Positions 2,276 to 63,060 of a DNA stretch of 64,000 bases are shown one piece after another (positions within the stretch are counted from its first letter, which is position 1; every line of letters begins with the position of its first letter). The notes beneath the pieces were generated by a model that saw only the letters and a program-made list of their open reading frames with translations, had not been told where the DNA came from and made no database searches. Made by a program: the position numbers and the translations under genes. The stretch is taken from the NCBI GenBank assembly GCA_039583875.1, contig CM077158.1:238623447-238687446 (forward strand), given 5' to 3'. Source of the stretch: Platanthera guangdongensis. Taxonomy: Eukaryota > Streptophyta > Magnoliopsida > Asparagales > Orchidaceae.

Positions 2276-2463
2276 TGTTGGACCCCTAGTTGATTTGAGC
2301 TATGTTCACTGACTTAGGATGTGACCCATCATGTATAGCCAGGGTCAAGTTTGTGTCCTAGAGTCTAGGCCAAGTCCTTAGGTTCAATTTCAGATGAACC
2401 AGCTATCAACAAGACCATCAGAGACTCCAGACTTAGAAGTTTTCAAGACTAAGTCAAATGAGT

Positions 2464-3930: not shown

Positions 3931-3985
3931 TAGAAGAGTGGATGTACCCAGGTTGGGGAATTACTATAAAATTTCTTGTGTCGTC
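3931..3985 (+). promoter_or_regulatory. Conserved LTR core-promoter-like block
   Basis: A GTGGATGTACCC segment, a G-rich stretch and ACTATAAAAT occur here. The same block appears in the 3' LTR (about 14728-14775) and, on the minus strand, at about 47200-47240 and 49155-49195 in two other LTR families. Conservation across diverged LTRs plus the TATA-like core suggests the promoter. The transcription start is inferred to lie about 30 bp downstream. Confidence 0.6.
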
Positions 3986-4163
3986 TGGTTGCCTTTTTTT
4001 TGTTTTGGCTGTGATCTGTGATTGTTTAGGTTGCTGTGCTTAGTTTATTTTATTTGCTGACTTGTTCACCTAGGCTTACAACAAAAGTTGTAAAAAGTTA
4101 GAAAAGAGCACAATACTCTATTCACCCCCCTCTAGAGTATTTCAGATCTAACCTGCACTTTCA

Positions 4164-15974: not shown

Positions 15975-16415
15975 CGTGTGCTATATGTCGACATTGATAT
16001 ACACCATGGAGATGGCGTGGAGGAGGCCTTCTACACAACTGACAGAGTAATGACAGTTTCTTTCCACAAATTTGGAGATTATTTTCCCGGAACTGGAGAT
16101 ATACGAGATATTGGATTTGGGAAAGGGAAATACTATGCTGTAAATGTTCCCTTGGATGATGGGATTGATGATGAAAGCTACCAATCCCTTTTCAAACCCA
16201 TAGTGGCTAAGGTTATGGAAGTTTTCCGGCCTGGTGCTGTAGTTCTTCAGTGTGGTGCCGACTCTCTATCCGGAGACCGGTTAGGTTGTTTCAACCTTTC
16301 TGTAAAAGGACATGGGGAGTGCGTGCGATATATGCGATCATTTAATGTGCCATTGCTTCTTCTTGGTGGTGGTGGGTATACGATTAGAAATGTTGCTCGA
16401 TGTTGGTGTTATGAG
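15975..16415 (+). CDS. Class I (RPD3-type) histone deacetylase, catalytic exon
   Basis: This exon encodes 147 residues of the zinc-dependent deacetylase that removes acetyl groups from histone lysines in nuclear repressor complexes. It begins at an acceptor (TATCAG|CGT) and ends at a donor (TATGAG|GTAATG), both phase 0. Visible active-site features are the zinc ligands in [11 protein letters not shown] and [10 protein letters not shown], and the catalytic Tyr in [15 protein letters not shown]. The sequence is uninterrupted and close to plant HDA19/HDA6 proteins. Earlier exons, which should hold the His-His dyad, are not in the window. The ATG at 15960 lies in the intron and is not a start. 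Confidence 0.95.
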
Positions 16416-16472
16416 GTAATGTTAAAGATCAGATTGTGTCGATTTTTTTTTAACTTTATTCTATCATGCTAA

Positions 16473-21480: not shown

Positions 21481-21619
21481 AATCTCTTTTATGCAGAGAT
21501 CACAAAATAATATCACTTCGACTGACTCTCAACTCGCTACGATTCCTCCTTCCTTTGGTTTTACCATTATGATATAAACTAATAAAATTAAAATAACAAT
21601 TACTAATCAAAATCCTAGC

Positions 21620-22890
21620 CCAACCATACACACATATACAACCATGCACACATCCACACACCTACACACACATTCATACAACCATACATACCCAACCAAA
21701 AGTACAAAAACAAACACACATACAACCATACACGCAAAAAAACAAACACACATAAACAACTCAAATTCACACACACACACACACATCCACACCCATACAC
21801 ATTCACAAACTTCCAATCCACACACCCACACACACACCCACACACACACATTCATATTCGTATACATACCCAACCAAAAGTACAAAAACACACACACATA
21901 CAACCATACACACATAAAAAAAAAACAAACACAAACATAAACAAACTCAAATTCACAGAAACACACACATCCACACTCATACATATCCACAAAAAAAACA
22001 AGCACACACACACACACATATCCTTACTAATTCACACACTTATTCTCATCCACAAAGTCACATACACACACTCATACTCATCCAAAAAAAAAAAAACACA
22101 CACACATTCATACATACAACCATACACACATAAAAAAACAAACACACACCCACACACACATCCACACACACGCACAATCACAAAAAAAAAAAAACACACC
22201 ACACACACACATCCACACTCATACACATTCACAAAAAAAAAACACACACATAAACAAACAAACACACACACACACACACCATACACACATTAAAATAACA
22301 CAAACACACACACACACACATCCATCCATATACACACACAAACACACACACACACATTCATACAACCATACACACATATACAACCATGCACACATCCACA
22401 CACCCACACACACATTCATACAACCATACATACCCAACCAAAAGTACAAAAACACACACACATATAACCATACACACATAAAAAAACAAACACACATACA
22501 CACACACACATATCCTTACTCATTCACACACTCATTCTCATCCACAAAGTCTTATGCACACACTCATACTCATCCAAAAAAAAACAAACACAAACACACA
22601 CATTCATACATACAACCATACACACATAAAAAAAACAAACACACACCCACACACACATCCACACACGCACAATCACAAAAAAAAAAAACACCACACACAC
22701 ATCCACACTCATACACATTCACAAAAAAAACAAACACACACATAAACACACACACACACACACACCAAACACACATAAAAATAACACAAACACACACACA
22801 CATCCATCCATATACACACACACACACACATCCCTACAAAACCAACAAAAAAACACATATAAATCCAAGCACATAAAAAAATCCATAAAC
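21620..22890. repeat. 1.3-kb compound CA-rich microsatellite
   Basis: Almost pure A/C sequence with CA, CACAT, CATACA and A-run words. Longer units recur, for example the string containing CCCAACCAAAAGTAC at about 21690, 21868 and 22433. It lies between the Myb/SANT gene and the right end of the Harbinger element. Long open frames on both strands here follow from low complexity. Confidence 0.95.
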
Positions 22891-25053: not shown

Positions 25054-25136
25054 CATTCTTGTCATGGGACGCCTAGGCGTCACGACGCTCAATTGTAAAC
25101 AAGGTGTTTGACGCATTTTTTTATAAAAATATGGGA

Positions 25137-25660
25137 ATAGACTGCGGTTTATATATAAACCGCAGTCTATTCCATGAACCATAGTATATACTGCGGTTAT
25201 TTTAAAACCGCAGTTTATTCCTTGAAGCAGAGAATAGACTACGGTTTATATATAAACCGCAGTCTATTCTAGGGGTCAGTGTAGAATAGATTGTGGTTTA
25301 TATTTAAACCGCAGTCTATGATCAAATAGACTACGGTGTGTGAAACAACCGCAGTCTATTCCATGAACCCGAGCATATACTGCGGTTATTTTAAAACCGC
25401 AGTTTATTCCTTGAACCAGAGAATAGACTGCGGTTTTTACGAGAACCGCAGTCTATGCTAGGGTTCATTGTATAATAGACTGCGATTTATAGATAAACCG
25501 CAGTTGAATCGCAAATCAGGAAATAAACTGCGGTTTATAAAACAACCGCAGTCTATAATACATCAAATAGACTGCGGTTGTTTGACAATAACCGCAGTCT
25601 ATTCTACCCTGAACCTCAGAATAGACTGCGGTTTATGCATAAACCGCAATCTATACTATC
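25137..25660. repeat. ACTGCGGTT palindrome array
   Basis: More than a dozen copies of GACTGCGGTT or its complement AACCGCAGTC are paired into palindromes with short AT loops, for example at about 25137-25173. The same palindrome recurs near the other end at about 27977-28015. Such subterminal repeats are typical binding sites for the TNPA-like protein of En/Spm elements. Confidence 0.88.
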
Positions 25661-28157: not shown

Positions 28158-28424
28158 TTGTGGAAGCTGAATGTCTGGCGACATCCGGGGACACCCTCAT
28201 TCTTCATCACCTCCTTCCAAACTCTTCTACCAACCCTAAACCTCCACTACTGTCACCTCCTCTACCCGCCCACTCATTTTTCCTCCACGCAACAATCGTC
28301 CTATTCCGACTCACCACTACAACAACTGCCGTGAGAGGATCAAGGTGAGGAGCCAACACACAGAGTCTCTTCAAAAACTTTATTTGTTCCAAGGCTTCAT
28401 GCCCATGTGGGCATTCTAACTTAT
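28158..28424 (+). pseudogene. Retroelement gag, second part
   Basis: It continues the gag frame of 24349-25053 after the transposon. The sequence is proline- and threonine-rich and ends near GRGSR-like codons at about 28346. No zinc knuckle is visible. Confidence 0.5.
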
Positions 28425-28840
28425 TCTGCGAGCTGTTCTCGCGAGGACGTAAGTTGTTCTATCTTATTCCGTGAGCTCATCTCGCGAGGTCACATGTTAT
28501 CCTACCTTTTTCGCAAGCTCATCTCGCAAGGTTACAGAGTGTTCTATCTTATTGCACGAGCTCATCTCGCGAGGTCACAGAGTGTTCTATCTTATTGTGC
28601 GAGCTCATCTTGCGAGGTCACAGGTTGTTCTACCTTATTCTGCGAGCTCATCTCGTGAGGTCACAGGGTGTTCTGTCTTATTCCGCAACCTCATCTCATG
28701 AGGTCACGGGTTGTTCTACCTTATTCCACGAGCTCATCTCGCGAGGTCACAGGCTGTTCTGTCTCATTCCGTGAGCTTATCTCGCAAGATCATGGGGTAT
28801 TCTCTATTATTGTCGCGAGTCCATTCTTGCGGGCTCTTCG
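28425..28840. repeat. 43-bp tandem repeat, about nine units
   Basis: Units contain GAGCTCATCTCGCGAGGTCA and a TTCTATCTTATT word and diverge moderately. A 43-bp period is not a multiple of three, so the open frames over it are by-products. Confidence 0.88.
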
Positions 28841-46602: not shown

Positions 46603-47102
46603 NNNNNNNNNNNNNNNNNNNNNNNNNNNNNNNNNNNNNNNNNNNNNNNNNNNNNNNNNNNNNNNNNNNNNNNNNNNNNNNNNNNNNNNNNNNNNNNNNN
46701 NNNNNNNNNNNNNNNNNNNNNNNNNNNNNNNNNNNNNNNNNNNNNNNNNNNNNNNNNNNNNNNNNNNNNNNNNNNNNNNNNNNNNNNNNNNNNNNNNNNN
46801 NNNNNNNNNNNNNNNNNNNNNNNNNNNNNNNNNNNNNNNNNNNNNNNNNNNNNNNNNNNNNNNNNNNNNNNNNNNNNNNNNNNNNNNNNNNNNNNNNNNN
46901 NNNNNNNNNNNNNNNNNNNNNNNNNNNNNNNNNNNNNNNNNNNNNNNNNNNNNNNNNNNNNNNNNNNNNNNNNNNNNNNNNNNNNNNNNNNNNNNNNNNN
47001 NNNNNNNNNNNNNNNNNNNNNNNNNNNNNNNNNNNNNNNNNNNNNNNNNNNNNNNNNNNNNNNNNNNNNNNNNNNNNNNNNNNNNNNNNNNNNNNNNNNN
47101 NN
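46603..47102. other. Assembly gap (500 N)
   Basis: Exactly 500 undetermined bases, a typical placeholder length. Whatever completes the LTR at 47103 is hidden here. Confidence 0.99.
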
Positions 47103-48639
47103 AAATCTAATCACAGCACTAAGTTAAACAAGAGCTAAGCACAGAAAAATCAAGGCCAGAAACAAAAATGAAACAAGCAAGACCAGAAGACACAAAGGAA
47201 ATATAGTGGTTCCCCTAAACTTGGGTACATCCACTCTTCTACCACCCTAGGTAGGAATCCACTACAGGATGAGTTGATCAGGTGTCCTGGGCACCAATGA
47301 GCTTTTGATAAGGTGCTCAAAAACCAAAGCAGATTTTTTGATCAGGTGTCTTGCCACCAATGAGCTTTTGACAAGGTGCTCAAAAACCAAGCTCAAACTT
47401 TTGAAGGGAGTTTGAGAAACCCTTTACAGAGAGGGGGTGAGAGGGTGATGGAAGTCTTCTCTTTCTCAAACAACTGAGAAGACTATGTGGATTGTTGATG
47501 TCAAAGCTCCCCCTGAATCCTTGAGATCTTCAGGAAGAAAAGCTTTGCTGAGGGTGATAGGCCTTCAAAGATTGAACTCCAGCAATAGATGATTTCAGTA
47601 ATAGCTGAAATGTTGAATGTCTGGAGTCTGGAAATATGTTAGCCTTGAACACTTTGAAAACTAAAGAGATCTGAAGATTTTTGAAAGCTTGATCTCCTTG
47701 GATGAGTGTTCTTCAGAATTCTTTTTGGCAGAATATTTTGAATGTGTCTTTGTAATCTCTATTCTGTGTGTCTCTCTCTGTGTGTCTGTTTTCTCAAAAA
47801 TTCTGTCTTTTATTCTCTGGTACAGGATAGAATAACATTCTCTGTCAAGAATAGCCGTTAGCCTGCATTGATTGCATCCTTAATTGCCAAATCTCTTCTG
47901 GGGGAAAGTCCACAAAAATATTCCTTGAAAAATCCCTTGAAACTTGGTCCAGAAATAAATGAAAACGGCTAGGAAATCTCTGAATTAATTGCAAAATAAC
48001 TCCTTGACTGATTTGAATTTGAATTAGAAACATCCTGGAAGTTATCTGAAATCGTCGAACTGAGCTCTGCTATCGTCGAGCTGAGCTCAGCGATCTGGAA
48101 ACATACAGCAGCAAAATATCGTCGATCTGAGCTCAAAGATCGTCGAACTGAGCTCAGAGATAAAGATCCAAAGCAGAGTCAAAATCGTCGACCTGAGCTC
48201 ACCGATCGTCGAGCTGAGCTCAGTGATCTGGAAACATACAGCAGCAAAATATCGTCGATCTGAGCTCAAAGATCGTCGAACTGAGCTCAGAGATAAAGAT
48301 CCAAAGCAGAGTCAAAATCATCGACCTGAGCTTACCGATCGTCGAATGGAGTTCGACGATATAATGAAGTTGAGCTCAGCGATCGTCGAATGGAGTTCGA
48401 TGACTGTCGAGGTTGAGCTAGACGATCGTCGATCGGAGTTCGACGAATCGTCGTGCTGAGCTCGATGATGTGACTTAGTCTCCAAATACAAAATCTTGGT
48501 CTTCAGGGCAACTTCCAAACCTAGACTTCTAACCCTTAGACTCAATTCTATTTGACCTATTAAGCTATACAGGAGGTCAAGCAAAGGTTCCTAGAGACAT
48601 AGTGATCCTGACCCAAATTAGTAATAGGGTGTTCCAACA
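47103..48639 (-). repeat. Sirevirus-type LTR, second family, inner end in the gap
   Basis: On the minus strand it begins TGTTGGAACACCC at 48639. It has a U3 hairpin array (48470 down to 48052), a conserved GTGGATGTACCC..GGGGAACCACTATA block (about 47240-47200), and runs into the gap roughly 100 bp before its expected end. It is related to, but diverged from, the LTR at 2276-4163. It cannot be told whether this is a solo LTR or the edge of a full element. Confidence 0.8.
48052..48470 (-). repeat. U3 hairpin array of the second LTR family
   Basis: Repeated ATCGTCGA and GAGCTCAG words form units such as ATCGTCGAACTGAGCTCAG with small inverted repeats. A longer duplication of about 130 bp (48093-48185 versus 48229-48322) includes the array. 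The offset from the LTR start (about 170-590 nt) matches the array position in the first LTR family. Confidence 0.8.
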
Positions 48640-48977
48640 CAAACTCCTCAAATGGAAACCAAGATGCACTCCTGAGATTTCTTGTCAAGTTTTGACCTCT
48701 CCTCCTTGGGGACATGAACATGTGCCTTGCAACCAAACACCCGCACATGTCCATAAGACACTTCCTTCCCGTACCAAATATGCTCTGGAATATCACCATC
48801 CAAAGGTGAAGAGGGGGAAAAATTGATCAAATGCATGGCAGCTCGTGCGACATCAACCCAAAACTGCTTGTCAATACTGGCCTAGGAGATCTTACACTTG
48901 ATCTTCTCCACAATCATCCTATTCATCCTTCTCATGCACGATGTCATATATCCAGCAATTAGCGTCAAAGGCTCCAA
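48640..48977 (-). pseudogene. Copia integrase/pol fragment, downstream part
   Basis: The minus strand encodes RRMNRMIVEKIKCKIS, DKQFWVDVARAAMHLINFSP, DGDIPEHIWYGKEVSYGHVR and KEERSKLDKKSQECI, the C-terminal part of a copia integrase core and the segment after it. It begins at the solo LTR (48978) and ends at the LTR at 48639. The upstream part of the same element is at 62734-63060. Confidence 0.85.
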
Positions 48978-49265
48978 TGTATTTTAAAGTCTTTATTTTC
49001 AAGAATAGCTAAATCACCTAAAGAGGGGTGAATAGGTTTTTTAGTCCTTAGTGACTTATCTTTAGTTTTCTTTTCTTTAGGAGCTTTATTAGTTGGTTTG
49101 ATTTTACTTTCAAGATATGTAACCTGCAAAACAACAAATGCACAAAGCACACACAAGATTTATAGTGGTTCCCCTAACAAGGGTACATCCACTTTTCCTC
49201 TCACCTATCCAACTATCTTGTTAGACTAGACACTTCTCCAAAACTCTGCTCCAAAGAGCTTACAC

Positions 49266-49634
49266 CTCAGATCCATCAGGATCTCTCAGACTCCTCCAAG
49301 ACTTACAACTTAGCCACAAGGGCCTACAACTCAGTGATCAGTAAATCACCTACCTCAGGCCAAAGGCCCTACACTCAGGTTGGGAGGACAGCCCTACCTC
49401 AGATCCATAAGGGATCCTATAATTCAGAGAGAATGACTCTCCTATAATCTCAGGCACACAGGCGCTACCTCAGATCTGCAGCTAGATCCTACCTCAGGCA
49501 CAAGTGACCTACAGCTCAGTAAGAATGACTCACCTACCTCGGACTTGAAATCAAGTCCTACAGCTCAGATTCTCAACAGAATCCTACCTCAGAGCAAATT
49601 TGGTCCTACCACTCAGATCCAATTGGATCCTACA
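49266..49634 (-). repeat. Array of short hairpins with changing, complementary arms
   Basis: Units of about 20-28 bp are bounded by CTCAG and CCTAC words on the + strand. Inside, each unit has its own inverted repeat: GATCC/GGATC (49270-49283), GTGAT/ATCAC (49334-49349), GGCC/GGCC (49358-49368), GATCC/GGATC (49402-49416), GAGAG/CTCTC (49427-49441), GATCT/AGATC (49473-49488), GGACTTGA/TCAAGTCC (49541-49558), GATTCT/AGAATC (49568-49583), GATCC/GGATC (49616-49629). Arms differ between units but pair within each unit. The array lies in U3, upstream of the TATA-like block. Confidence 0.85.
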
Positions 49635-50485
49635 AGATGGAAGTAGGTTGTATGGTTGATCTTGACACAAGAGATGTTTCTTTATGCCAAGGTTCTGGAC
49701 AGAGATAACCTCACCCCACTATGACTCCAGGAAAATATTTTTTGAGTCTACTTTTACCTGAACTGAGATGTACTCGGTCTTAGCTTCTTCTTCTCAGCTC
49801 CAGAGATTTTTCTTGCTGGGACTGAGGAGTGACTACAGCAAAACTTGCTGCTACCTGAGCTGAGAGAATCCCAGACCAACTTCTTCTCAGCATCAAGGAT
49901 GTAGATCTTGCTTTGGCTTGTGCCGAAAGAATCTTACAGACAACTATTTGCTTCTTCTTTCTTTCTTGAGCTGAGGAGATTCAACCCTAACTTCTTCTTC
50001 ATAGACTCCAGTAGATATTCTTCAGAGATGTACAGCTGAATCTGTGAAGAACTTGCTGGTGCATATGGAAAATGGCACCGTCTATCCTGTTTTCTTCCTT
50101 CAGATATTTGCTTTGATCTTGTTGATGTCGATGGAGAAGACAATCAGCTAACTTATTTAGCTTTCATACTTGTTGTCTTGAGCTTCATGTTCTTCAATCA
50201 CAACAACAACGATGATGAAGAAGAACAACACCAAGGGCCCTTTTTTCTGTAAAAAGGCTTCTCCTTTTATTGATTGTAACCCAACGACTCTTTTAGCAGT
50301 GGGTCCCACACCATTAATGACCAGCTGCAACTTTGCTTTAATGTCAAATGTCGTATAGTAGCTATGTAATGCTTTTTGTCATGTACTGTAGCTTTCCCGC
50401 TATCAGTTTGAATAATGTTGACTTGTTGACTTGCTGACATCAACGCATGTGGACTTAACCAAAATTAAGCATTAGTAGAATATAC

Positions 50486-51000
50486 GTTGAGTGAATGAGC
50501 TTCACTCAACGCCAAGAAACTTAGACAGAATTTTGTCTATCTAGGCGTTGATAACGTTGAGTGAGCAAGCCTCACTCAACGCTTTTTGTCTTAACTTATT
50601 CTTCACCTTTTTCTGCATGCATGACGTTGAGAGCGTTGAGTGACCACACCTCACTCAACGCCTTGTTCCTTAGCCATGCTATCTGTATTTTAGGCATTGA
50701 GAGCATTGAGTGAGCACTCCTCACTCAAGGCTTTCTATCTTAACCAATTTCCTGCTTCTTCAGCATCTTAAGCATTGAGAGCATTGAGTGAGCACGCCTT
50801 ACTCAATGCTTTTTGCTTTAGCCAGATTTTCTGAATCATAGCATTGAGAGCGTTGAGTGAGCATGTCTCACTCAACGCTTTCTGCCTTAGCCAGATTTTC
50901 TGCTTCTTGGCATTGAGTGAGTAAACTCCACTCAACGTCTAACTACTTAATATATTTTCATTATGTTTATCTGGCGTTGAGTGAGTAAGCTACACTCAAC
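50486..51000 (-). repeat. GTTGAGTGAG/CTCACTCAAC hairpin array
   Basis: Eight hairpins spaced 60-80 bp apart (starts about 50486, 50556, 50635, 50705, 50781, 50851, 50911, 50975), with 8-10 bp stems and 4-7 nt loops. Three more lie across the gypsy insertion at 62284-62310, 62392-62417 and 62511-62528. The unit at 50781 has CATTGAGT paired with ACTCAATG where most have CGTTGAGT with ACTCAACG, a paired change. Linkers share CTTAGCCA and TTTTCTG words. Confidence 0.9.
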
Positions 51001-51022
51001 GTATTTGGACTTAGCCAAATCT

Positions 51023-51691
51023 TATACAACCTTGGGCTCGCGAGTAGCCCGACAGACAAGGAAGGAAGGCTGGCGAGACGGGGGAGGCCAACCCCCTCGA
51101 AAGGAAGGGACATCCCATGAGTTAGGGCGAGACCTCGCTAGAGAGATCTCGCTAGGCGAGACCTCCGGGCGCGGGCGAGACGAGCCCACAGGCGAGATCC
51201 CCCTAAGCTTGGCGGGTCCTTCCCCACTCGCCACATGAAAAAGATGGTCTCTACCCTTTTACCCATAAGGGGGATTTTACCTTTGTGCCCCAGATAGTTT
51301 TACATTTTTACCCCTGGAGGCCTGCATATAGCTCTCCAGAACAACGGAGTTGGGCTATTAGCAAACCCAGCCCATGGTGTTTTGGTCTTTTCAAGTGGAT
51401 TTAGAATTGATATTTACAGATCAGATTCAGAGGCCTATAAATAGACCGATAAGGTGCCTGAGAAGAGGTTGTTGAATCCTTCCACTTTCTTCCTCACAGG
51501 CACCTAGCTCAGCACTGGCTAGGGAGGGGAAGACTCTCAGTTCTTCCGGGTACGAGGCGGGACCTCCAAGCTGAGTCCCCTCGGTCTGTTTTCAGGTCAC
51601 TGACTCTCATCAGGAGGGTAGCGCAGGGAGAGTACTTGTGGGCTGCATCCTGTTTCGAACTCTAGGAGGGACCGGAAAGCTGGTTCCAACA
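51023..51691 (+). repeat. 5' LTR of the Tat element
   Basis: The right end is fixed by identity of its last 131 bp with 62088-62218, the left end by the AATCT duplication. It starts TATACAACC rather than TG and ends GGTTCCAACA. A TATA-like CTATAAATAG lies at about 51434-51443. Confidence 0.75.
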
Positions 51692-51734
51692 TTTTTGGTG
51701 TGGTGAGCGTGGAGGTAGCCCTCAGAGAAGAACC

Positions 51735-53221
51735 TTGAGCAACCACATGGCGGGAGATCACGGGGAAGGAGAAGGAGGGGAGTCGGATAACCAGGGGGAA
51801 TTTGTAGGGAGGGCCGAGTTTATGGCTTCAATCAAGGGGATCATGGATCTACTGCAAGGGATCTCGCGGCAGGGAGACTGTTCGACTCCACTGCCTCCAG
51901 CGCCAGCTCTCGCGACTCAGGAAGAACTCGTCTCGGCGCGAGTAGGAGAGGATGCCCCGGGGAGAAGGTCGGGAAAGGAGGTGATGATGGAAGGGAGCGG
52001 GAGAGACATGTCGGGAAGGGAGCTGTTCCCAAGCCCGGCGGTTACCATCTCGCAAGGAGAGGTCGTCGCGCGAGCAGGGGCAGTGAGACCGGCGGCGAGA
52101 GGGTCCCCTTTTTGCGAGCTGATCCCGTCCGCTCCCGTCCCGGAGGGCTTCCGAGAGCCCGAGATGAACTACTACGTAGGGAAGGATGATCCTCTCAACC
52201 ACTTGCAGTGGTTAGAAGACGCTGTCTCGATCAGACCCATGACAGACGCGTTTAAGTGCCGCCTTTTTGCAATCACCCTAAAGGACAAAGCTAGGGACTG
52301 GTTCCATCAACTCCCGACCGGTTCGATATACTGCTTCGAGGACTTGAGTAGGAGTTTTCAGCTCCGGTTCTCCACGTCAAAGAAGAGGAAAAAGAATCCG
52401 GAGTCGATCTTCTTAATCAAGCAGAGGGCGGAGGAATCGCTGGCTCAGTACGTGGATAGGTTTCAAGAAGAGATTCTGGATATACAGGAGGTGCCAGGGT
52501 TCGCCCTCCAGATGGCCTTCACGGTGGGACTGCGGGAAGGATTCTTCAAGATGAGCCTCACCCGGAAGGCACCGCTGTCCTTTGAGGGCCTGATGGAGAA
52601 GGCGACAAAGGAGATAGCGATGGAGGCGGCAAACCCAGCTTTTGCAAAGAAGCTAGCAAGGCTCGCTGAGGTAGAGTCGAAGGAGTAAGGTGGGAGGCAA
52701 CCGGAGGCAAGGAGAAGAGAGGAGCCAAGGGTGCAGGCGTATCCGGAGCTGGGGTGGAGACAGCAGGGAGGCCTAGCCCCAGGGCAAGGTAGGGGATTTC
52801 CCCAAGGGGGGAGGAACCAACCGGGAGGACCAGGAAGGTTCCATCAGCAGGGGTGGGGATACGGTCATAGACCACCCCTACCCCCTCCGCAGCAGGCAAT
52901 GGCCATCGGCCGAGGCAGAGGAAGGGGTCGGGAGAGAGGAAGAGGAGCCGGAGCAGGGAGAAGGAGGAACCCTCGGGAAGGAGGACAGGGGGGGAGGTGG
53001 TGATGCCATATTGTGACTTCCACGAGGAGGAAGGTCACGCAACGGCTACCTGCCCAGATTTCTTAGAGATGAGGAGAACTCGAGGGGCAGGAGAGCAGCC
53101 CAGGCCGGTGAGGATAGAGGAAGTAACAGTTGCTAGAGAAGAGGATCGCTGTGTGGATCGAGCAGATGAAGGAGACCGCGGGAGAATCAGAGTGATCAAT
53201 GGGGGGGGGGGGTGGGGATAG
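51735..53221 (+). pseudogene. Tat-element gag
   Basis: ATG at 51735. The capsid domain (about 52145-52640) has DDPLNHLQWLEDAV, FKCRLFAITLKDKARDWF, LSRSFQLRFSTSKKR and FTVGLREGFF. A stop at 52686-52688 is followed, in the same frame, by a glycine/arginine/glutamine-rich segment (RGRGRGRERGRG). The zinc-binding motif YCDFHEEEGHATATCPD (53003-53053, Cys-His-His-Cys spacing of Tat/Athila gag) is in the next frame. Both frame changes fall at G homopolymers (about 52988-52996 and 53201-53212) and could be sequencing errors. Confidence 0.85.
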
Positions 53222-53883
53222 AGGCGGCTCGAAAGGCGAGCCTCCACACTATGTACCGCCGAAGCGTCGCCTCAACTTCACAATCCCCTCCTCCAGATGA
53301 AAAGATTACATTTTCAAGAAAAGACATGCCTGACCATGAGGACCCCTTCTGTGACGCGCTTGTGATACAGACCGCCATCAAAAACTTCACGATGTCGCAG
53401 ATCCTAGTGGACAATGGGAGCTCAGTGAACGTGATTTTCAAGAAGGCATTCAATGCAATGAGAGTGGAGGCCCGGAGGGTGCTGGCGGCGGATGGACCGC
53501 TGTTTGGGTTGTCAGGGGAGAGGAAAGAAGTCGAGGGGGGAGTAGGGCTTCAGGTGACCCTGGGAGGGCTGTCCCGGAATTGCCGCTTTGTCATAGTAGA
53601 TGCCCCCAGTAGCTACAACGCTATCTTTGGGCGCCCCTTGATCAACGCTTTCAGATGCGTCCCATCCTCGTTTCACCAGTGCTTGAAGTTGAATTCGGGA
53701 GGGACCCAAATCAGGGTACGAGGAGACCCAAAGGCTGCTAGGGAGTGCTACGTGATGGCAGTTAACACCATCACCCGGCGGGGGATGCGGAGGAGTTGGA
53801 GAAGCGGATGGAGCAATTGCAACAAGAACAGGGAGGTGGGGAAGAGCAAAGGGAGCAGGAAGGTGCTGAAGGAGGAGAGGTAG
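53212..53883 (+). pseudogene. Tat-element aspartic protease
   Basis: The frame contains the retropepsin block QILVDNGSSVNVIFKKAF (about 53398-53452) and SYNAIFGRPLINAFR (about 53611-53655), the usual flap-to-C-terminal landmark. The active site reads DNG where related elements have DGG or DTG. An acidic G/A-rich linker follows (53790-54300) before RT. The long minus-strand frame over this segment is only its shadow. Confidence 0.82.
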
Positions 53884-54295
53884 TGATGGCAGGGGGTATT
53901 GCGGAGGAACCAGAAATGGCGGGAGAGGAGTTCGGGGAGATGATAGTAGTAGAAAAAGGGGAGGAAAGTGCGAAGGGGGAGGAAGAGGAGGTAAGGAGCC
54001 CGGGCCTGGGGGGAGGCTTGAAGTGGCTGGAAAGGAGGGTGAAGAGGCGGAGGCAACAGGGGGAGAGGAGCCAAGGGGAGAGGTACGAAGGAGAGAAAGA
54101 AGGCAGAGGGAAGAAGAGGGAGGGCCGCCCAGGGAGGGGGCCCGACCAGGAAAGAGAAGGGTCTCACGACAGGAGGAAGAGGATGCAAGCAAGTGGGAGA
54201 TGGGGCAGCCGGAGGAAGAGAGGATGATGGCCAACGTAGAAGGCAAAACCAAGGTGCAGGATGTGCAGGCAGGGCAGGAAGGAGAGGAAGAGTCG

Positions 54296-56283
54296 TCAAG
54301 GCTGAAAGCGGCCGTGGAGGTCCTCGAGGTAGAGATACGTACCAAAGAAGGTCGAGAAGAAAAGATAAAAATCAGTGGCGAGCTCAGCCCGGAGGACCGG
54401 GAGAAGATCAGGACCTGCGTGCAGAAACATATTGACGTCTTCGCATGGAGCGTCGCGGACATGCCAGGGGTCGATGCAGACGTCGCCTGTCACCGCCTCA
54501 ATCTAGACCTCAACACTCGCCCCATACAATAGAAGAAGAGGGTCATCGCCTCCAAGATGGCCGGACCTATTATAGAGGAAGTGGATAAGTTACTTAAGGC
54601 GGGGTTTGTGTCCGCCTGTAAGTACCCGGGGTGGGTGAGTAATGCTGTAATGGTCAAAAAGGGGGAGGGTAAGTGGAGAATGTGCGTGGATTTTTCTCTT
54701 TTAAATAAAGCATGCCCCAAGGATAGTTACCCGCTGCCCCGAATCGACGCGCTGGTGGACTCAGCCGTCGGTTTCCCCTTTATGAGTTTCTTGGATGCGT
54801 TTTCTGGGTACCATCAAATACGCATGCATCCTCCGGGCGTTAAGGACGTCACCTTCGTCACGGAGGATGGATGCTTCTGCTTTAATATGATGCCTTTCGG
54901 TTTGAAAAATGCGGGCGCGACCTATCAAAGGATGATGGATCGGATTTTCCGAGAGCAAAAAGGAAGGAATCTCGAGGTCTACGTGGATGACTTGATGATC
55001 AAAAGCAAGGATCTCGGGGCTCATATCCTAGATCTGGAAGAGACCTTTGAAACCCTAAGGGAGTATAAAATGAGACTCAACCCCCTGAAATGCATTTTTG
55101 GTGCTAGCAGGGGAAAGTTCCTGGGGCACCTACTCACTCCCTCTGGAGTGGAGCCCAACCCCGAAAAAGCCTCTCTCGAGCCGGGGAGAAATGCTTGCCC
55201 TTTTTCCGAATGTTGCGAGGAGGCAAGAGATTCGAGTGGACCTCGGAGTGTGAGATAGCTTTTCAGGCCATAAAACAACAGCTTACCCAGGCACCCTTAC
55301 TCCAGGGACCAAGGGAAGCAGAGGTCTTATTCCTATATTTCGGGGTAGGAACTGTGGCGGTAAGCTCGGTTCTAATGCGGGAAGAAGGTAAGAAACAATT
55401 TCCGATCTATTACGTGAGCAGGGTTCTGAAGAAAGCGGAGCTCGGGTACCCCATTCTTGAGAAGTTAGCATTTGACCTCATCATCTCGGCCCGAAAGCTT
55501 CGGCCGTATTTTCAGGCTCACTCCATACAGGTGGTAACTGATCACCCCCTCTGTCGCATCCTGGAGGGAGTAGAGCATTCTGGGAGGTTGGCAAAATGGT
55601 CAATAGAACTCAGTGAATTCGATCTCGCCTTCGTCCCTCGACTCGCCATAAAGGCACAGGCAGTGGCCGATTTCCTGGTGGACTATGTGGTGGAGGTCCA
55701 GGAGACGGAGGCGTCCCCTCGGGAAACCTGGAAGATGATAGTAGATGGGGCGTCGGGGAGAAATTCCTTTGGAGAAGGAGTGGTCTTGATCAGCCCGGAG
55801 GGGACCCAGATTGAGCAGGCCTTGAAGATCCATTTCGCAATCACCAATAACCAAGCGGAATATGAGGCGGTCATTGCGGGACTCAGGTTAGCCCGGGAGC
55901 TGGGCATACAAGACATTGAGGCATCGACAGATTCCATGGTGGTGGCAGGCCAGATCAAAGGGGAGTTCGAGGCAAGGGAGCCCACCCTCCAGTTGTATCT
56001 AGGAAAGGTCAAAGACATCATAGGGCATTTCCGAAGCTTCTCCATTCAGCACGTCCCGAGGGAGGAGAGCACTCAGGCTGACCAACTCGCCAAGCATGGC
56101 CCTCGGGCCGGGGGAACAATGACGGAACTCTTCAGACCGTCTATAGAGGAGGGGGAGCTCATGGAAGTATGCCAGCAGAGGTCGTGGATGGACCCCTTTA
56201 TCACCTTTTTGCATCAGGGCAGTTACCCGCAATGGAACTCGACAAGAGACATACCAGATACAAATCTGCGTACTACCTGCTGA
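54296..56283 (+). pseudogene. Tat-element reverse transcriptase and two RNase H domains
   Basis: Pre-RT signature HIDVFAWSVADMPGVDADV (54428-54484). A TAG at 54530-54532 lies just before KKRVIASKM. RT: WRMCVDFSLLNKACPKDSYP, FLDAFSGYHQIRMHP, MMPFGLKNAGATYQRMMD and EVYVDDLMIKS (about 54975-55008). The RT thumb is shortened and shifted near 55165-55200 (NPEKASLEPGRN), a deletion of roughly 100 bp by family comparison. First RNase H from 55230 (FEWTSECEIAFQAIKQQL). Second, archaeal-type RNase H from about 55730 (KMIVDGASGRNSFGEGVVLI, TNNQAEYEAVIAGLRLAREL). The second domain supports Tat lineage. Confidence 0.92.
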
Positions 56284-57437
56284 AGGATGGAGTTTTATAT
56301 CGCAAAAACCTGTCAGGTCTGCTGTCCAGGTGTGTGTTAGAGGAGGAGGCTCCCAAGGTTCTGCAAGAGATTCACTCGGGAGAATGTGGGAGTCACTCGG
56401 GAAGCTGGACTTTAGAAGGGAGAGTGCTGAGGCAGGGGTACTTTTGGCCCACCCTCCGGAGAGATGCAGAGGAATTCGCAAAAAGGTGTCAAAAGTGCCA
56501 GGAATTCGCCCCCCTTCAGCTCCTTCCGGCCCAGAGGTTGAGGACCATCACAGCCCCCTGGCCATTCGCTGTATGGGGACTAGATCTGGTGGGCCCCTTT
56601 CCCCAAGCGAGTGGACAAAGGAAATTTCTGATAGTCATGGTGGACTACTTTTCAAAGTGGCTGGAGGTGAAGGCATTGGCTAAGGTAACCTCACAGGTGG
56701 TCAAGAACTTCGTATGGGGGGAGATCATCTGCCGGCATGGGTTGCCCCTAGCCATTGTAACAGATAACAGACAACAATTTGCAAGCATGGAGTTTGTGGA
56801 TTTCTGCATTCGTTTGGGGATAGATCTCCGCTTCGCCTCTGTTCATCATCCACGGAGTAACAGACAGGTCGAAGCGGCTAATAAGGTCATTGTCAATCTG
56901 TTCAGGAAAAAGGTGGAGAATTTGAGAGGAAGCTGGGTGGAGCAACTGCCGTCAGTACTGTGGACCTTGAGGACCACACCAAACACAGCCACGGGGGAAA
57001 CCCCGTTTAAGCTCTCCCATGGCTCAGAGGCTGTCATACCTGTCGAGTTTGAGGTCGCGTCACCAAGAGTGGCGGTTGCAAGGGAAGGAGCGGAAGGATG
57101 GAGAGCAGAGAACGAAGAAGAACAGAGACTTTCGTTGGATCTCGTGGAGGAACTCCGGGATTTAGCGATGGTCTGGCAGGAAGAGGTCAAGCGCCAGATG
57201 GCGAGGTACTTCGACAAGCATGTAAGGGTCAAGCAGTTTGTAAAAGGGGATTTAGTCCTGAAAAAGGTAGACGCGGCGGGTAGAGGAGCCTCTGTAGGGA
57301 AGCTTAACCCCAATTGGGAGGGTCCTTTTGTAGTAAAAGAAGTCTTAAAGTCAGGAGGGTACCACCTCCAGGATGTGGACGGGGTATCCCTCGGGCGAGC
57401 CCGGAGTGGTGATGATTTGAAGAGATTTTATCCATAG
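56169..57437 (+). pseudogene. Tat-element integrase
   Basis: An uninterrupted 422-residue frame. Zinc-binding region: HSGECGSHSGSWTLEG..CQKCQEF (about 56370-56505). Catalytic core: WGLDLVGPFPQASG (first Asp), IVTDNRQQFAS (second Asp, but the Gly of the usual TDNG is Arg) and HPRSNRQVEAANKVI (Glu). The GPF-type C-terminal end NWEGPFVVKEVLKSGGYHLQ is present to about 57380. Frames overlap the end of the RNase H frame by 115 bp, showing a frameshift between them. Confidence 0.93.
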
Positions 57438-57574
57438 CACTCTATTCCATCACACCTTTTTATTATTATTATTATTATGGTGTAACGCTTATCATCTTGA
57501 CGTACTCTCTTGATGCGACGAAAGTGTGGGTGACCTTTGTGAGGCACCAGGGGCGAGGTGATTTGTAGAAACAA
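57438..57574 (+). other. 3' end of pol and spacer
   Basis: Contains a TTA/ATT trinucleotide run (57460-57478) and leads into the tandem array. Confidence 0.6.
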
Positions 57575-58672
57575 CCCCGAGCAGACCCGCTGACCAGGCT
57601 CCCATCAAGCTGGCAGGGTTGTAGGCTCACTCGGTGGTTGGTGGTGATTTGGAGAGGTGACCCCGAGCAGACCCGCTGACCAGGCTCCCATCAAGCTGGC
57701 AGGGCTGTAGGCTCACTCGGTGGTTGGTGGTGATTTGGAGAGGAGACCCCGAGCAGACCCGCTGACCAGGATCCCATCAAGCTGGCAGGGCTGTAGGCTC
57801 ACTCGGTGGTTGGTGGTGATTTGGAGAGGAGACCCCGAGCAGACCCGCTGACCAGGCTCCCATCAAGCTGGCAGGGCTGTAGGCTCACTCGGTGGTTGGT
57901 GGTGTTTTGGAGAGGAGACCCCGAGCAGACCGCTGACCAGGCTCCCATCAAGCTGGCAGGGCTCTAGGCTCACTCGGTGGTTGGTGGTGATTTGGAGAGG
58001 AGACCCCGAGCAGACCCGCTGACCAGGCTCCCATCAAGCTGGCAGGGCTGTAGGCTCACTCGGTGGTTGGTGGTGATTTGGAGAGGAGACCCCGAGCAGA
58101 CCCGCTGACCAGGCTCCCATCAAGCTGGCAGGGCTGTAGGCTCACTCGGTGGTTGGTGGTGTTTTGGAGAGGAGACCCCGAGCAGACCCGCTGACCAGGC
58201 TCCCATCAAGCTGGCAGGGTTGTAGGCTCACTCGGTGGTTGGTGGTGATTTGGAGAGGAGACCCCGAGCAGACCCGCTGACCAGGATCCCATCAAGCTGG
58301 CAGGGCTGTAGGCTCACTCGGTGGTTGGTGGTGTTTTGGAGAGGAGACCCCGAGCAGACCCGCTGACCAGGCTCCCATCAAGCTGGCAGGGCTGTAGGCT
58401 CACTCGGGGGTTGGTGGTGTTTTGGAGAGGAGACCCCGAGCAGACCCACTGACCAGGATCCCATCAAGCTGGCAGGGCTGTAGGCTCACTCGGTGGTTGG
58501 TGGTGTTTTGGAGAGGAGACCCCGAACAGACCCGCTGACCAGGCTCCCATCAAGCTGGCAGGGCTGTAGGCTCACTCGGGGGTTGGTGGTGTTTTGGAGA
58601 GGAGACCCCGATCGGACCCGCTGACCAGGCTCCCACCTAGCTGGCGGGGCGGTAGACTCACTTGAGGGGACA
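57575..58672. repeat. 86-bp tandem array, about 13 units
   Basis: Unit starts (CCCCGAGCAGACC) fall at 57575, 57661, 57747 and then every 86 bp, with very low divergence; the last unit is diverged. Units carry CCCATCAAGCTGGCAGGGCT and GGCTCACTCGGTGGTTGG. Arrays in this 3' noncoding position are known from Tat/Ogre elements and can seed satellite DNA. An older array at 29219-29612 has a related unit. Confidence 0.95.
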
Positions 58673-59213
58673 AGTCTCAAGGTAAGAATTCGCATAGGGG
58701 AAGATCCATGTTCATCAAAAGGGTGATAGTCCCTAAAACAGAGAGGGGCCAGGAATTGGGCCAGGGAAGAAGGTCCCTGGCCGGCACTTGCCATAGGTGG
58801 TCTCGCCACTGGCGGGAGGGTTTTCCTCATCCCAGGCCCGAGTAAGCTGAAGTGGCCGAAACCGACCGGGCGGGACGGCCGGACCCAGGGCTTCTGGCGC
58901 GAGATAATCTCGCGACACAACGCTAACGGTGGCAATCAAGATAGGGGAAAAAGGTGATAAAGGGTGCCTCGCGCTGACTTTTAAGCGAGATGGCAGACAA
59001 TAAAAGTAGTGAGTAAACAACGTCCCAAAAAAATAAGTGTATAACACTTAGCGCCCCAAAGGGGGAAGCGACAGTTAGTATATAAAGAGTTTTAAACAAA
59101 AAAATATTAATGAGGCGGGGACACCTCGCTCTCCTTTTACGGAAGTAAACCAGAATCATAAGTGTTGGGCAAAAGGAAGATGGCGAGAGGAAGACATTGC
59201 AGGGGATGGTGCG
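58673..59213. other. Spacer between array and antisense gene
   Basis: No coding signal. It probably holds the 3' untranslated region and terminator of the minus-strand gene ending at 59214. Confidence 0.5.
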
Positions 59214-61126
59214 CTACTCGTTGTCAGAGGAGGCGCTGTCGTCCGACTCATCGAACAAGCGCGGGACTAGGTCGCGGACGGTCACCGTCTCCGCATCAGC
59301 GCGCACCACTCCCAACTCCTTCATCATCTTGAGGACAACCTCCGCAGTCTTGATATTTGAGTCCCAGCAGATGGCCTCCACCTCATCCACGGAATATCGA
59401 GAAGGCACGGGAAGCTGATCCGGTGGTGGTGTCGCACTGCTCCGGAGGCGAAGATTCTCGGCCTTCAGCTTCTTATTTTCTCCCTCCAGCTCCTCGATAC
59501 GCGAGCGCATCCTGTCGGCCGTCTCGGCATCCTGCGGGAGGTGGGAAAGTAAGGGACTATAAGGGGCAAGGGTAAGGCCAGCCAGGCAAAGATAAGGAAA
59601 CTTACCACGCCGCCCTGGCTCTGTGCAAGGAGGTTGTCAGCAACATGCAACCGCTTCTCCAGGTCGATGGACTTCTCGCGCTCCGCGGCGAGACCGGCCT
59701 CCGCCTCTTTCCATTTCCTGTTGTTGAAGACGAGACGGCGCGAGACGCGGTGCGCGAGCTCCAGGGACCGAAACTGCGAGTGGGCGCTTTTTAGAATGAG
59801 GTCCCGCGATGCCTCGTTGTCAGCAGGTTCGGAGCCAAGACCGCCATACAGCCCGAAGCCTAGGGAGAAGGCATGGTTGGTGGTGTGGTCCTGTTCCTTC
59901 CAGGAAGGGAGAAGGGTGGACACCGACACGCGGTTGAGGTCTTGCTCCCATATCAGAACCGGCTCGCCGGCGTCATCCTCCGTCGCGGGCCCCATATTAT
60001 AGTTAGGGTGTGAGGCGGGAGCCGGGCGACTGGACGAGCCAGTCTCGTCAGGAGGAAGCTGAGAGGGCTGAACATGGCAGTGGGCAGCTGGTTCTGCAGA
60101 GACCGTCTCGTGGGTTGGCGAGACGGGCCGTCGCGGAGGCGAGGGAGACGATAGGGTGATAGGGGATAAAGACCCCGCTAGCTCTTCTCTTCTCTTGGCC
60201 GGCTTTTCCTTCTCGAAGGACACAGATTTCTTCTTCTTCTTGGGGCTAAGGCGAGAGGCACCCTCGCCCGCGGGCCTCTTCTTGGCGACAGGGGTCAGCG
60301 TGTCTTTCGCAGCCTCCGCCTCCATATTCGCCAGAGCAAGAGTCTGATTGCTCTGGTAGGGGGGGGATGGACGGGGACAGTCCTTTCTCCTAGATAAAAT
60401 GACAGTCAGCGGAAGGTAAGAATTTATGGGGACAGAAAGAAATAGAGGGGTACCTTCGCCCGGGAAAACGGCGGGGAGTGAGTCAAGGTCTCGCCGCAGG
60501 TATTGGACTTCAAAATTCTTCCCCACGAAAAAATCGCAGAGCTCTTTTTCGGCACCCCCCACCTTGGGGGTATCATAATAGCACTCGGCGGGGGATACTG
60601 GGGCGAGAGGGATGCCTCCCAGGTCCCCGCGTATGAAGACGAGCCGCGTCAACCAATGGTGGTTCTTGTTCGGCGTCTCGCATACTTTGAGGCCTTGACC
60701 TGTGAAGTAAGAAATGTCGTCGTCCTTGGCGTGGTAGACAAACAGCTTGCGGAAGGCGGTTAGACTAAACTCGATACGCTCTCGCCGTAGGTAGCAGGCG
60801 AAGGCGATCAACATGGATATGACGTTGGGGTTGAACTGGGCTGGGACGACCCCAAAGTACTTCAGCACCAATTTGACCTCAGGCCAGAGGGGAAGCCTCA
60901 GCCCCGCCTCGAAGTGAGAGACCGGGAAAGCCAGCTCGTTGGGATAGAAGGTGTTGATGCACTCGCCCACCTTGGGCGGGCGAGACGGGTAGCTATCGGA
61001 GAGGTACTCACGGGCGAAGCGAGCGTGGTCTTCCTCTGGCAGTCTGCCGAGAGGGAAGTCATGGTCCACGAAACGCTTCCCGCAGTGGCTGCGTCCCTCG
61101 CCCTCTTCAGTCTTCTTCTTTCCCAT
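59214..61126 (-). CDS. Antisense gene in the Tat element (gypsy-type transposon protein), two exons
   Basis: ATG at 61126. First exon 61126-59606 (507 codons), intron 59605-59532 (74 bp, GTAAGT to CCCGCAG, phase 0), second exon 59531-59214 ending in TGA-type stop; 612 residues in all. The N-terminal half matches the plant domain known as putative gypsy-type transposon (FEAGLRLPLWPEVKLVLKYF, PAQFNPNVISMLIAFACYLR). Then come a Lys-rich nuclear-signal-like KKKKKS, a proline/serine linker, and two coiled-coil stretches that continue across the intron (IEELEGENKKLKAENLRLRS). The C-terminus is acidic. The reading frame is fully open, unlike gag-pol of the same element. Function is unknown. A second possible intron near 60453-60390 breaks frame and is not used here. 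Confidence 0.8.
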
Positions 61127-61254
61127 GATTAGCGAGAAAGCGGCAAAAGAAAGAGTGGATGGCCCAGGGAGAGACGCGAGATGACGGAGGGGAAACGGGA
61201 GCCGGGATCCAAAGAACGGCTTAAAATAGTAAGGGAGAGTGGTAGTGGTTGGAG

Positions 61255-61267
61255 GTATTTATAAGGG
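61255..61267 (-). promoter_or_regulatory. TATA box of the antisense gene
   Basis: The minus strand reads CCTTATAAATACC, about 130 bp upstream of the ATG at 61126, leaving room for a ~100-nt leader. CT-rich repeats (61320-61385 on +) lie further upstream. Confidence 0.7.
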
Positions 61268-61319
61268 GTAGGGAAAAGGGTGGGAAAATAAGGCGGCGGG
61301 AAATGAGAGGACATCCCGA

Positions 61320-61656
61320 CGCCTCGTTCTCTCCCCCTCTCTCTCTCACTCCCTTATCCCACTCTCCCTCTCCCACTCTCTCTCTCTAGAACTCAAGAGG
61401 CGGAGGCGCCGCAGAAACCCTTTCGGGGCAAGCCATCATTGCAGGATTAATAAAATAATAATAATAAAGTAATATCTAATCATGGCAATAATGAAAAGAC
61501 GACATGATAAGACCCTTGCGTGGCCAAAAGTCAATACATAAATCGTCCCGCAGAAGGGGACGTCTCGCCCAAATAAGTTTTTACAACATATCAGTGATAA
61601 CACAGCGACATTAATAGAAACGAGATCCAGAGAAGGCGGGACGGGACTGGGACCGT
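61320..61656. other. Region between the two antisense frames
   Basis: A CT-rich low-complexity run (61320-61388) and a TAA/ATA-rich stretch (61444-61475). No coding signal is seen. Confidence 0.5.
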
Positions 61657-62070
61657 TTAGTTCCGCACCCACTGCCAGCGGCCATCTTTACCTCCCGCGC
61701 ATGGCGGGTGGCCAGGAAGATGGAAGGCGCGAGCGGCGATCACGCCGCGGCGCGCGAGACAGAGATGTTCATCCGTCTCGTTTAGTATGGCCTGGGGGTC
61801 GGCCCCGTCTAGCACCCCGTCCGCTTCCACCATTGCGGAAAGGCGGTGGTGATCTGCTTCAATCCACTCCATGCGCCGGTCGGAGGGTTGCTTCTCGAGC
61901 TCCATCTCGCGGATTATGTGTGTATATTTGCGGAACATCCGGGCAGTCCTCCGTTTCAATTCCAGAGGGTCCATGGGATCACCCAGGTAGTCCTCGATCT
62001 CGCCCGGATGAGGAAGAGGCGAGAGGGGGGGAGATGCGGGAGCTTCCTCAGTATCGGAATCAAAGTGGAT
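61657..62070 (-). pseudogene. Second antisense reading frame, 5' truncated
   Basis: An open frame continues upstream of the Met at 61974 to a splice-acceptor-like CTCTCGCAG at about 62063 (IHFDSDTEEAPASPPLSPLP, then MDPLELKRRTARMFRKYTHI). It ends at 61657 with WQWVRN. Upstream exons would lie in the region deleted next to the 3' LTR remnant. It is separate from the gene at 61126, which has its own TATA box. No family is recognised with certainty. Confidence 0.5.
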
Positions 62071-62087
62071 GCCTGCGAGAGTAGCAA

Positions 62088-62218
62088 GACCTCCAAGCTG
62101 AGTCCCCTCGGTCTGTTTTCAGGTCACTGACTCTCGTCAGGAGGGTAGCGCAGGGAGAGTACTTGTGGGCTGCATCCTGTTTCGAACTCTAGGAGGGACC
62201 GGAAAGCTGGTTCCAACA
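62088..62218 (+). repeat. Truncated 3' LTR of the Tat element
   Basis: It matches 51561-51691 with a single noticed difference. The upstream 538 bp of the LTR, its polypurine tract and some internal sequence are deleted. Confidence 0.85.
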
Positions 62219-62223
62219 AATCT

Positions 62224-62733
62224 CAACATAGATTTTCTGTGGCTTTGACTTATAAGGCAATAGTCAACGAATATAGAGTATGGTGTTGAGTGAGTGATAC
62301 TCACTCAACGCCTTTGGAATTAGCCACTTTTTGCTCATTTCTTCTTAGGATTTTTCTGCATTAGTCTGTCTCACAGCCTTTTGCTATATGACGTTGAGTG
62401 AGTTGACTTCACTCAAAGCCTGTGGACTTAGCCACTTTCTCAGCTGTCCACTACTTTAACTTTGACTGTATAGGCTTCACTCAGCGCTATAAGTCATCTG
62501 GCGTTGAGTGAATGATCTTCACTCAATGCATGTGGTCTTAGACAGTTTTCTGTCTATCCATACCTTACGTAAGTGTTTACTTGACCTAGCCACTTATGCT
62601 ACATGTCCCATCATTGTTGTTAGGACATCCCTGCAATCACTAAACTTGAGCACAAGTTAGATTACCACATGTGTATACATTGTTTACTAGGGCCTTCTTC
62701 AAATCCAGGACATTGAGATCAATCGACCCAACA
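62224..62733 (-). repeat. Solo LTR, start part
   Basis: The first 510 bp of the LTR described at 48978-51022, separated from it by the gypsy insertion, whose AATCT duplication joins the two parts. It contains three GTTGAGTGAG-type hairpins. Confidence 0.78.
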
Positions 62734-63060
62734 GTATTCACCCTCATTGTCAGATCGTGCCCGCCTGATCACCTTTCTTGTCATCTTCTCCACCTTCGAC
62801 CTGAACTCCATGAACTTTGTCAAAACTTCACTCTTCTGCTTTAAGGAATAGGTTCATACCTTCTCGGAGTGATCATCTATAAACGTGACAAAGTAGGCTA
62901 CTTCACCCACTGAATTGGGCTCAATCAGACCACATACATCAATGTGTATCAAGCTCAGCAGCTCTGTCTTCCTCTTCGGTTCAGCATGTGCGAAGGATAC
63001 TTTGTTTGTCAATCTGAGTCCAGATCGGTGGAGAGAACTTGAAGGAGCACACTTTCATCT
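62734..63060 (-). pseudogene. Copia integrase fragment, upstream part
   Basis: The minus strand encodes FAHAEPKRKTELLSLIHIDV, CGLIEPNSVGEVAYFVTFID and RKVIRRARSDNEGEY, the start of a copia integrase core with its first two catalytic Asp positions. It stops at the solo LTR (62733). The same integrase resumes at 48977, so both pieces once formed one element. Confidence 0.85.

Follow-up and report, generated by a model that had tools for sequence, protein, structure and literature searches.

Retroviruses carry structured RNA in the R region of their long terminal repeats (LTRs), namely TAR and the poly(A) hairpin, and Gag-binding packaging signals of a linker type are displayed between stem-loops. 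To our knowledge, little is known about cis-acting RNA structures in the LTR retrotransposons of plants.

Among the latter, Sireviruses are known for palindrome-rich LTRs. In PMC2829016, the repeated motifs (RM) of these LTRs are described as copies of one palindrome, 66.5–100% identical within an element, which cluster upstream of the TATA box and carry CGG-CCG, Tnd-1 excepted; their description further includes the borders of a CpG island, and a polyC-rich integrase signal close to the 3′ end of the LTR is given there as another Sirevirus feature. Palindromes in Sirevirus and other LTRs are usually read as cis-regulatory (PMC2829016, PMC10760457), and those of maize Sireviruses are small-RNA hotspots (PMC10760457, PMC5311732). 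The last two sources cite Bousios 2016 for a maize palindrome region with the consensus CACCGGACNNNGTCCGGTG, treated as cis-regulatory.

Here we describe an array of 17 stem-loop units at 49248–49629 (minus strand) in a window of 64,000 nucleotides, the whole stretch analysed, from the orchid Platanthera guangdongensis. Like the RM arrays of PMC2829016, it packs many inverted repeats closely together in a Sirevirus LTR, not far from a TATA box; unlike them, it has arms specific to each unit, a conserved linker and a place downstream of the TATA box. It differs from the RM description in three features (one palindrome, a position upstream of TATA, and the CGG-CCG core, which is absent from all 17 units), and represents another array class in another place. 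The maize region, as cited, is likewise hairpin-forming and highly variable, but has a common consensus, a cis-regulatory setting and a link to small RNAs. With the hairpins of retroviral R the array shares what appears to be structured RNA in R by a poly(A) signal, with single-stranded motifs exposed between stems; retroviral R, however, has few large hairpins, whereas the array has many tiny tandem units, and no homology is claimed. The preliminary description of this locus knew of no described equivalent. Palindrome-rich Sirevirus LTRs have in fact been described (PMC2829016; Bousios 2016 as cited in PMC10760457 and PMC5311732). No R-region array with unit-specific stems was found in a search of the open-licence literature; within that literature, such an array is new.

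We argue, at a probability of roughly 0.6, that the array forms structured RNA within the R region of its Sirevirus LTR, an element in which the linker and the pairing are kept while the arms drift through compensating changes.

The host LTR and its Sirevirus affinity

The window is plant DNA built of nested LTR elements. The array-bearing LTR lies on the minus strand, starting at 62733 (TGTTGGG) and ending at 48984 (..TTTAA, against TTTCA in copy L041). It is bounded by a 5-bp target-site duplication, AATAC, adjoining its 3′ end at 48979–48983 and its 5′ end at 62734–62738, and a copia integrase reading frame (recognised by eye) is split into two pieces on either side of it, from which we conclude that it is a solo LTR. 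Nested within it is a retroelement at 51030–62220 (ends approximate, no strand assigned), gypsy-like by its reading frames, with a reverse-transcriptase match at 54533–55255.

In the sense direction, the LTR presents U3 palindromes, a TATA-like site, the hairpin array, a further hairpin, a conserved hairpin, TATAAA with a GT-rich stretch, and a polyC tract, all on the minus strand. Interrupted by the nested element, the U3 contains 12 long palindromes of a single type: eight similar ones (CGTTGAGTGAG..CTCACTCAACG) at 50484–51003, and four more of the same type, one of them degenerate, in the U3 remainder past the insertion (62283–62530). The TATA-like AATAAAAG at 50264–50271 is the probable promoter; clearer TATA boxes are found in the relatives L047 and L062. 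Downstream of the array, the hairpin at 49208–49225 aligns with hairpins of other families in which a stem pair has changed. It is followed by the conserved hairpin GTGGATGTACCC..GGGGAACCAC (49165–49192), by TATAAA (49159–49164) and a GT-rich stretch, which would be the poly(A) signal and the end of R, and by the polyC-rich "integrase signal" (TATTCACCCCTC) at 49023–49034, near the LTR 3′ end.

The assignment to a Sirevirus-type (Ty1/copia) family, made in the preliminary description, is supported by primer-binding site (PBS), polypurine tract (PPT), polyC signal and palindrome array. For the PPT AGGGGGAG, family copy L042 has AATAGGGGGAG before its LTR start (the window LTR, being solo, has no PPT beside it), and at the AT/TG attachment site the same copy has AT and then TATTGGG, compared with the TGTTGGG start of the window LTR. 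The PBS TATCAGAG(C) is found just past the LTR end in L041 and L043 (..TGGTATCAGAGGG), with G rather than C as ninth base. The U3 array at 50484–51003, built of one palindrome, fits the RM description except for the CGG-CCG core.

Other parts of the window were recorded as well. A plus-strand Sirevirus LTR pair (2276–4163 and 13043–14959, 95.9% identical) encloses a copia reverse-transcriptase match, and its second member is preceded by the PPT AGGGGGAG/AT/TG; a run of 500 N at 46603–47102 borders another Sirevirus-type LTR. Tandem arrays occur at 25135–25658 (palindrome-rich, ACTGCGGTT..AACCGCAGT, period 48/189, the window's densest 400-base stretch in short hairpins), at 28414–28792 (43-bp unit with CGCGAG palindromes) and, within the nested element, at 57574–58662 (86-bp unit, 12.7 copies). 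A further one, a long CA-rich stretch, covers 21619–22876, and 15942–16472 looks like a histone deacetylase exon (Pfam PF00850, E 3.7e-52).

Architecture of the array

The preliminary description reported at least nine inverted repeats at 49266–49634, separated by shared CTCAG and CCTAC words. The array is there, as are all the repeats it named (GTGAT/ATCAC, GAGAG/CTCTC, GGACTTGA/TCAAGTCC and GATTCT/AGAATC), but its count was too low and its extent becomes 49248–49629, with minus as the sense strand; the two words are present as the two ends of one conserved linker, in sense TGAG-(0–4 nt)-GTAG. Segmentation by linkers gives 15 inserts, the last of which holds two units, and one more unit lies past the last linker, making 17. 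Units measure 11–16 nt, with stems mostly of 4–6 bp and loops mostly of 3–7 nt, and follow each other at a spacing of about 24 nt, their starts being 19–26 nt apart.

Unit 1 (GATCC/GGATC, 49616–49629), first in the sense direction, has a similar first unit in six of six aligned arrays. Unit 4 (49542–49557) has the longest stem, lengthened by a following linker that starts with C instead of T. A higher-order repeat of four units, about 91–95 bp long, makes unit 9 (49427–49441) the partner of unit 5 (49519–49533): both have the loop TCATT, and one stem pair is swapped between them, T-A versus A-T. Unit 17 (GCTC/GAGC, 49248–49259), the last, aligns with GATC/GATC in L056 and L062−.

Conservation is concentrated in the linker, whose ends have an entropy of 0–0.57 bit versus 1.5–1.9 bit at arm positions 2–5. 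The closing G-C pair is constant and keeps its fixed place beside the linker unit after unit, and loops are unpaired. Since opposed loop bases are complementary at 9 of 37 positions, which is the chance level, the units are stem-loops and not through-palindromes. A coding function was rejected, as stops are numerous in all three sense frames and unit starts are 19–26 nt apart. An Rfam search over 47000–51200 returned four matches (E up to 1); each fell short of its gathering score, and the array was covered by none of them.

Pairing within units

That the arms are not copies of one sequence and yet pair within their own units, as first noticed in the preliminary description, is borne out by the counts. 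In the 17 units delimited by hand, 71 of 80 arm positions pair, whereas 37.0 are expected when arms are redealt among units (observed value reached in 0/20000 redeals); segmentation by linkers only gives 61 of 75 versus 33.2 (0/20000). With the constant outer G-C left out, 55 of 63 inner pairs match in their own unit, while inner-pair match to the 3′ arms of units one to five places away is 0.20–0.36. When the 45 column pairs are ranked by mutual information after average-product correction, ranks 1–4 go to the four variable stem pairs. An analysis of both-sided changes among units by lag found no lag prominent. Arms that differ between units and still pair with themselves point to selection for the shape of an RNA rather than for its sequence.

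Comparison with shuffled sequence, which the preliminary description had named as decisive, also favours the stems. Perfect 5-bp hairpins with 3–7-nt loops number 8 in 400 bases, compared with a mean of 1.6 after dinucleotide shuffling, and 0/1000 shuffles reach 8. Local folding is stronger than in dinucleotide shuffles, most of all at a span of 20 (z −4.85 minus strand, −4.23 plus strand; 0/300 each), then at spans of 30 (−3.06 and −2.41) and 40 (−3.12 and −1.73), and the unrestricted fold reaches just −2.5 and −1.4, respectively. Redealing the 3′ arms weakens the local fold, from −100.7 to a mean of −80.6 (z −3.35, 1/500). Single-unit stems of the window copy are weak (0 to −8.9 kcal/mol); under wider folding longer pairings compete, and the linkers are no more unpaired than the rest of R-U5.

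The closest copies in the genome

A search of the 4.25-Gb assembly gave 8813 candidates, of which the best 40, that is, the window copy and 39 others 89–92% identical, were scored. Across these best 40 of 8813, the majority bases form pairs at 77 of the 80 positions and a G-U at one more, and the remaining two are each the innermost pair counted in a short unit; six of the nine non-Watson-Crick pairs of the window copy are minority states in this set.

The preliminary description had read the array as compensating change, which would entail an excess of paired substitutions among family members. Such change is found between units and between families, but not at this level: in the 39 closest copies of 8813, both-sided changes number 17 versus 18.2 expected, and those that keep Watson-Crick pairing 10 versus 10.1. 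Diversity among the best 40 of 8813 is 0.112 in arms, 0.116 in loops, 0.081 in linkers and 0.088 outside. The differences among the closest copies look like neutral decay of single insertions, and the best 40 of 8813 give no sign of arm correction among resident chromosomal copies.

Individual positions in the best 40 of 8813 are consistent with a path through G-U. At 49346/49337, A-U is found in 26 copies, G-U in 10 and G-C in two (these two being identical), and at 49391/49380, C-G in 15, U-G in 14, U-A in four and C-A in three. One-sided changes in the closest copies, again from the best 40 of 8813, yield sense G-U 136 times versus A-C 72 times; outside the array, however, C-to-T (0.082) exceeds G-to-A (0.038) in like manner, so that the G-U excess is no proof of selection on the sense strand. 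In at least 5 of the best 40 copies of 8813, G-U occurs at eight stem positions and A-C at none, while in exactly 4 of the 40 the two are level, at four positions each.

Related arrays in other LTR families

Other families were drawn from the same genome: 15 LTRs were picked by a loose form of the conserved hairpin, and in a sample of 20 arbitrary 10-kb stretches its motif was present in 10, in 11 LTRs. Five of these 11 (L047−, L056+, L059+, L062+ and L062−) have TGTAG..TGAG arrays with other stems. Redeals reach the observed pairing in 26, 0, 8, 7 and 0 of 5000 trials, respectively, and in 0/5000 for the window array under the segmentation used for its relatives, by which some of its units are lost. 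Pooling all six arrays (52 units cut out, of which the 49 with a length of 11 nt or more entered the test), 123 of 147 positions are paired versus 54.0 redealt (0/5000), and among 43 distinct units the three variable stem pairs take ranks 1–3 of 28.

Comparison of aligned units shows both-sided change that preserves pairing at six stem positions and one-sided change at three, two of the latter to G-U. These counts come from nine sets picked by eye from the alignment, with unpaired loop-edge positions in sets u2, u3 and u_n2 excluded from the stem count. The L047 row was omitted from the GAACC set for a one-sided mismatch in its unit, the L059 row from the hairpin after the array, where its arms do not line up in register, and the window row from set u2, where its stem differs and the alignment is doubtful; including the omitted L047 and L059 rows would raise the one-sided count. 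The flanking pair is G-U, A-U or G-C in 52 of 52 units, but the linker pattern restricts the preceding base to G or A and the following one to T or C, and just about 0.4 A-C would be expected, so that the count gives no evidence.

A cruder count, which splits the types less cleanly, took the 400 bases that precede the conserved hairpin motif and scored perfect 5-bp hairpins in them. Array-bearing LTRs have 4–8 (0–25 of 300 shuffles reach the count, L059 being the weakest), and the other types, comprising L051, L052, L053, L063 and the window LTRs at 47103–48590, 2276–4163 and 13043–14959, have 3–6 (7–173 of 300). Hairpin richness extends into the next 400 bases upstream, with 9 in L056 (0/300), 6 in L047 (2/300) and 6 in L062− (6/300). 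In L054− and L061+, whose linker is a different one, the count is 7 and 6 hairpins, respectively (1/300 each). In these two, the 400 bases before the conserved hairpin contain a GTGTTGTAA-like linker and the stems GGAAC/GTTCC, GGGTTG/CAACCC and GGAAGG/CCTTCC; the two may have an independent counterpart of the array. DNA-pattern searches for relatives in viral contigs and in genome contigs found none, and among viral contigs selected by reverse-transcriptase protein, seven stretches matched a pattern and none was confirmed.

Probable position in R

The preliminary description placed the array in U3. This placement is not supported, as in three relatives (L047−, L062+ and L062−) the order is U3 palindromes (from about −870, relative to the conserved hairpin), a clear TATA box GCCTATAAATAGG at −683, −699 and −703, respectively, and then the array at about −305 to −60, some 400–640 nt downstream of the TATA box. 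The case is less clear in L056, where only TATTTAA occurs upstream, at −766, and in L059, where the upstream TATA-like site (−958) stands among palindromes. Furthermore, TATAAA lies inside unit 2 of the array in five of five relatives (−215 to −290), and together these sites make the transcription start uncertain. Judged from the sequence, the array most likely lies in R, downstream of the probable promoter and before the conserved hairpin and poly(A)-like site. By position it is probably transcribed, and a location in R would put it at both ends of the genomic RNA. The U3 palindromes of L047, L056 and L062 have arms TGTCGACA(C) and variable interiors.

Alternative explanations

The preliminary description also considered a replication process that copies an arm into its complement. 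A template switch at a hairpin during reverse transcription would write one arm as the complement of the other with no selection for structure, and would yield the same signature, contiguous stems around loops included; swapped (transversion) both-sided changes do exist, between units 5 and 9 and between the GAG.. units of L056 and L062. Against it speak the constant closing G-C, the fixed place of the stems by the linker and loops that stay unpaired, as well as G-U at eight positions and A-C at none in at least 5 of the best 40 copies of 8813 (level at exactly 4). Resident copies show no sign of it, a comparison which covers chromosomal copying only and leaves room for it in the replication cycle; on balance we hold it to be unlikely, while giving it an appreciable minority chance. 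Rather smaller is the chance we give to a cis-regulatory array acting as DNA, in which the linker (CTACCTCA on the plus strand) would be a transcription-factor site and the palindromes spacing or part of that site. The plus-strand linker resembles a MYB AC-type element, TATAAA within unit 2 of five relatives would allow an internal promoter, and the customary interpretation of LTR palindromes cited above points the same way. On the other hand, three relatives have their best TATA box upstream of the array, the same LTRs have a separate U3 array with one repeated palindrome, and, because the arms differ from unit to unit, a single factor could hardly read them as sequence.

A host function as siRNA or Dicer-like template, as proposed for maize Sirevirus palindromes, would agree with their being small-RNA hotspots (PMC10760457, PMC5311732). 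The substrates of plant Dicer-like enzymes are far longer than the 4–7-bp stems of the array, the long U3 palindromes fit this role better, and we regard such a function of the array as very improbable. We give least credence to a by-product of repetition, with a few hairpins duplicated in tandem and then drifting without function, the pairing being an ancestral residue. The 4-unit higher-order repeat is visible and the closest 39 copies of 8813 decay without visible constraint, but drift would not leave arms that are different and yet complementary: pairing survives at 71 of 80 positions in spite of strong variation of arm positions between units, and both sides changed at six aligned stem positions. 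The redeal tests have already largely refuted it.

Proposed role and significance

A conserved linker combined with free stem sequence, kept pairing and free loops is typical of structured RNA displaying a repeated motif between its stems, and the reading we prefer is that of an RNA element in R. About 17 short stem-loops with conserved UGAG-n-GUAG linkers at a spacing of about 24 nt would be retained in active lineages for linker sequence and for the ability of the arms to pair, while arm sequence would drift via compensating changes, the pairing presumably being maintained by selection on the sense RNA. Such an array may serve as a multivalent protein-binding platform with the repeated motif shown between stems. 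Its likeliest ligand would be the element's own Gag during packaging; nearly as likely would be a host factor for 3′-end processing or for translation of a long leader. Stems that differ from each other may also prevent reverse transcriptase from deleting units through slippage between identical repeats.

More broadly, and tentatively, since we think it somewhat less probable than its opposite, Sireviruses may have in R an RNA element of a kind not yet described, in which up to about 17 miniature stem-loops stand in tandem and selection for pairing leaves the stem sequences free to evolve; it would act in packaging or in the choice of the 3′ end, and its diversity would guard against slippage and small RNAs. 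Because every unit tries out one and the same structure anew, a strong covariation signal can be read inside one element. With abundant copies, sister families with other stems and the contrast of a one-palindrome U3, function is directly testable, whether it be packaging, poly(A) choice, leader translation or the copying of arms by reverse transcriptase.
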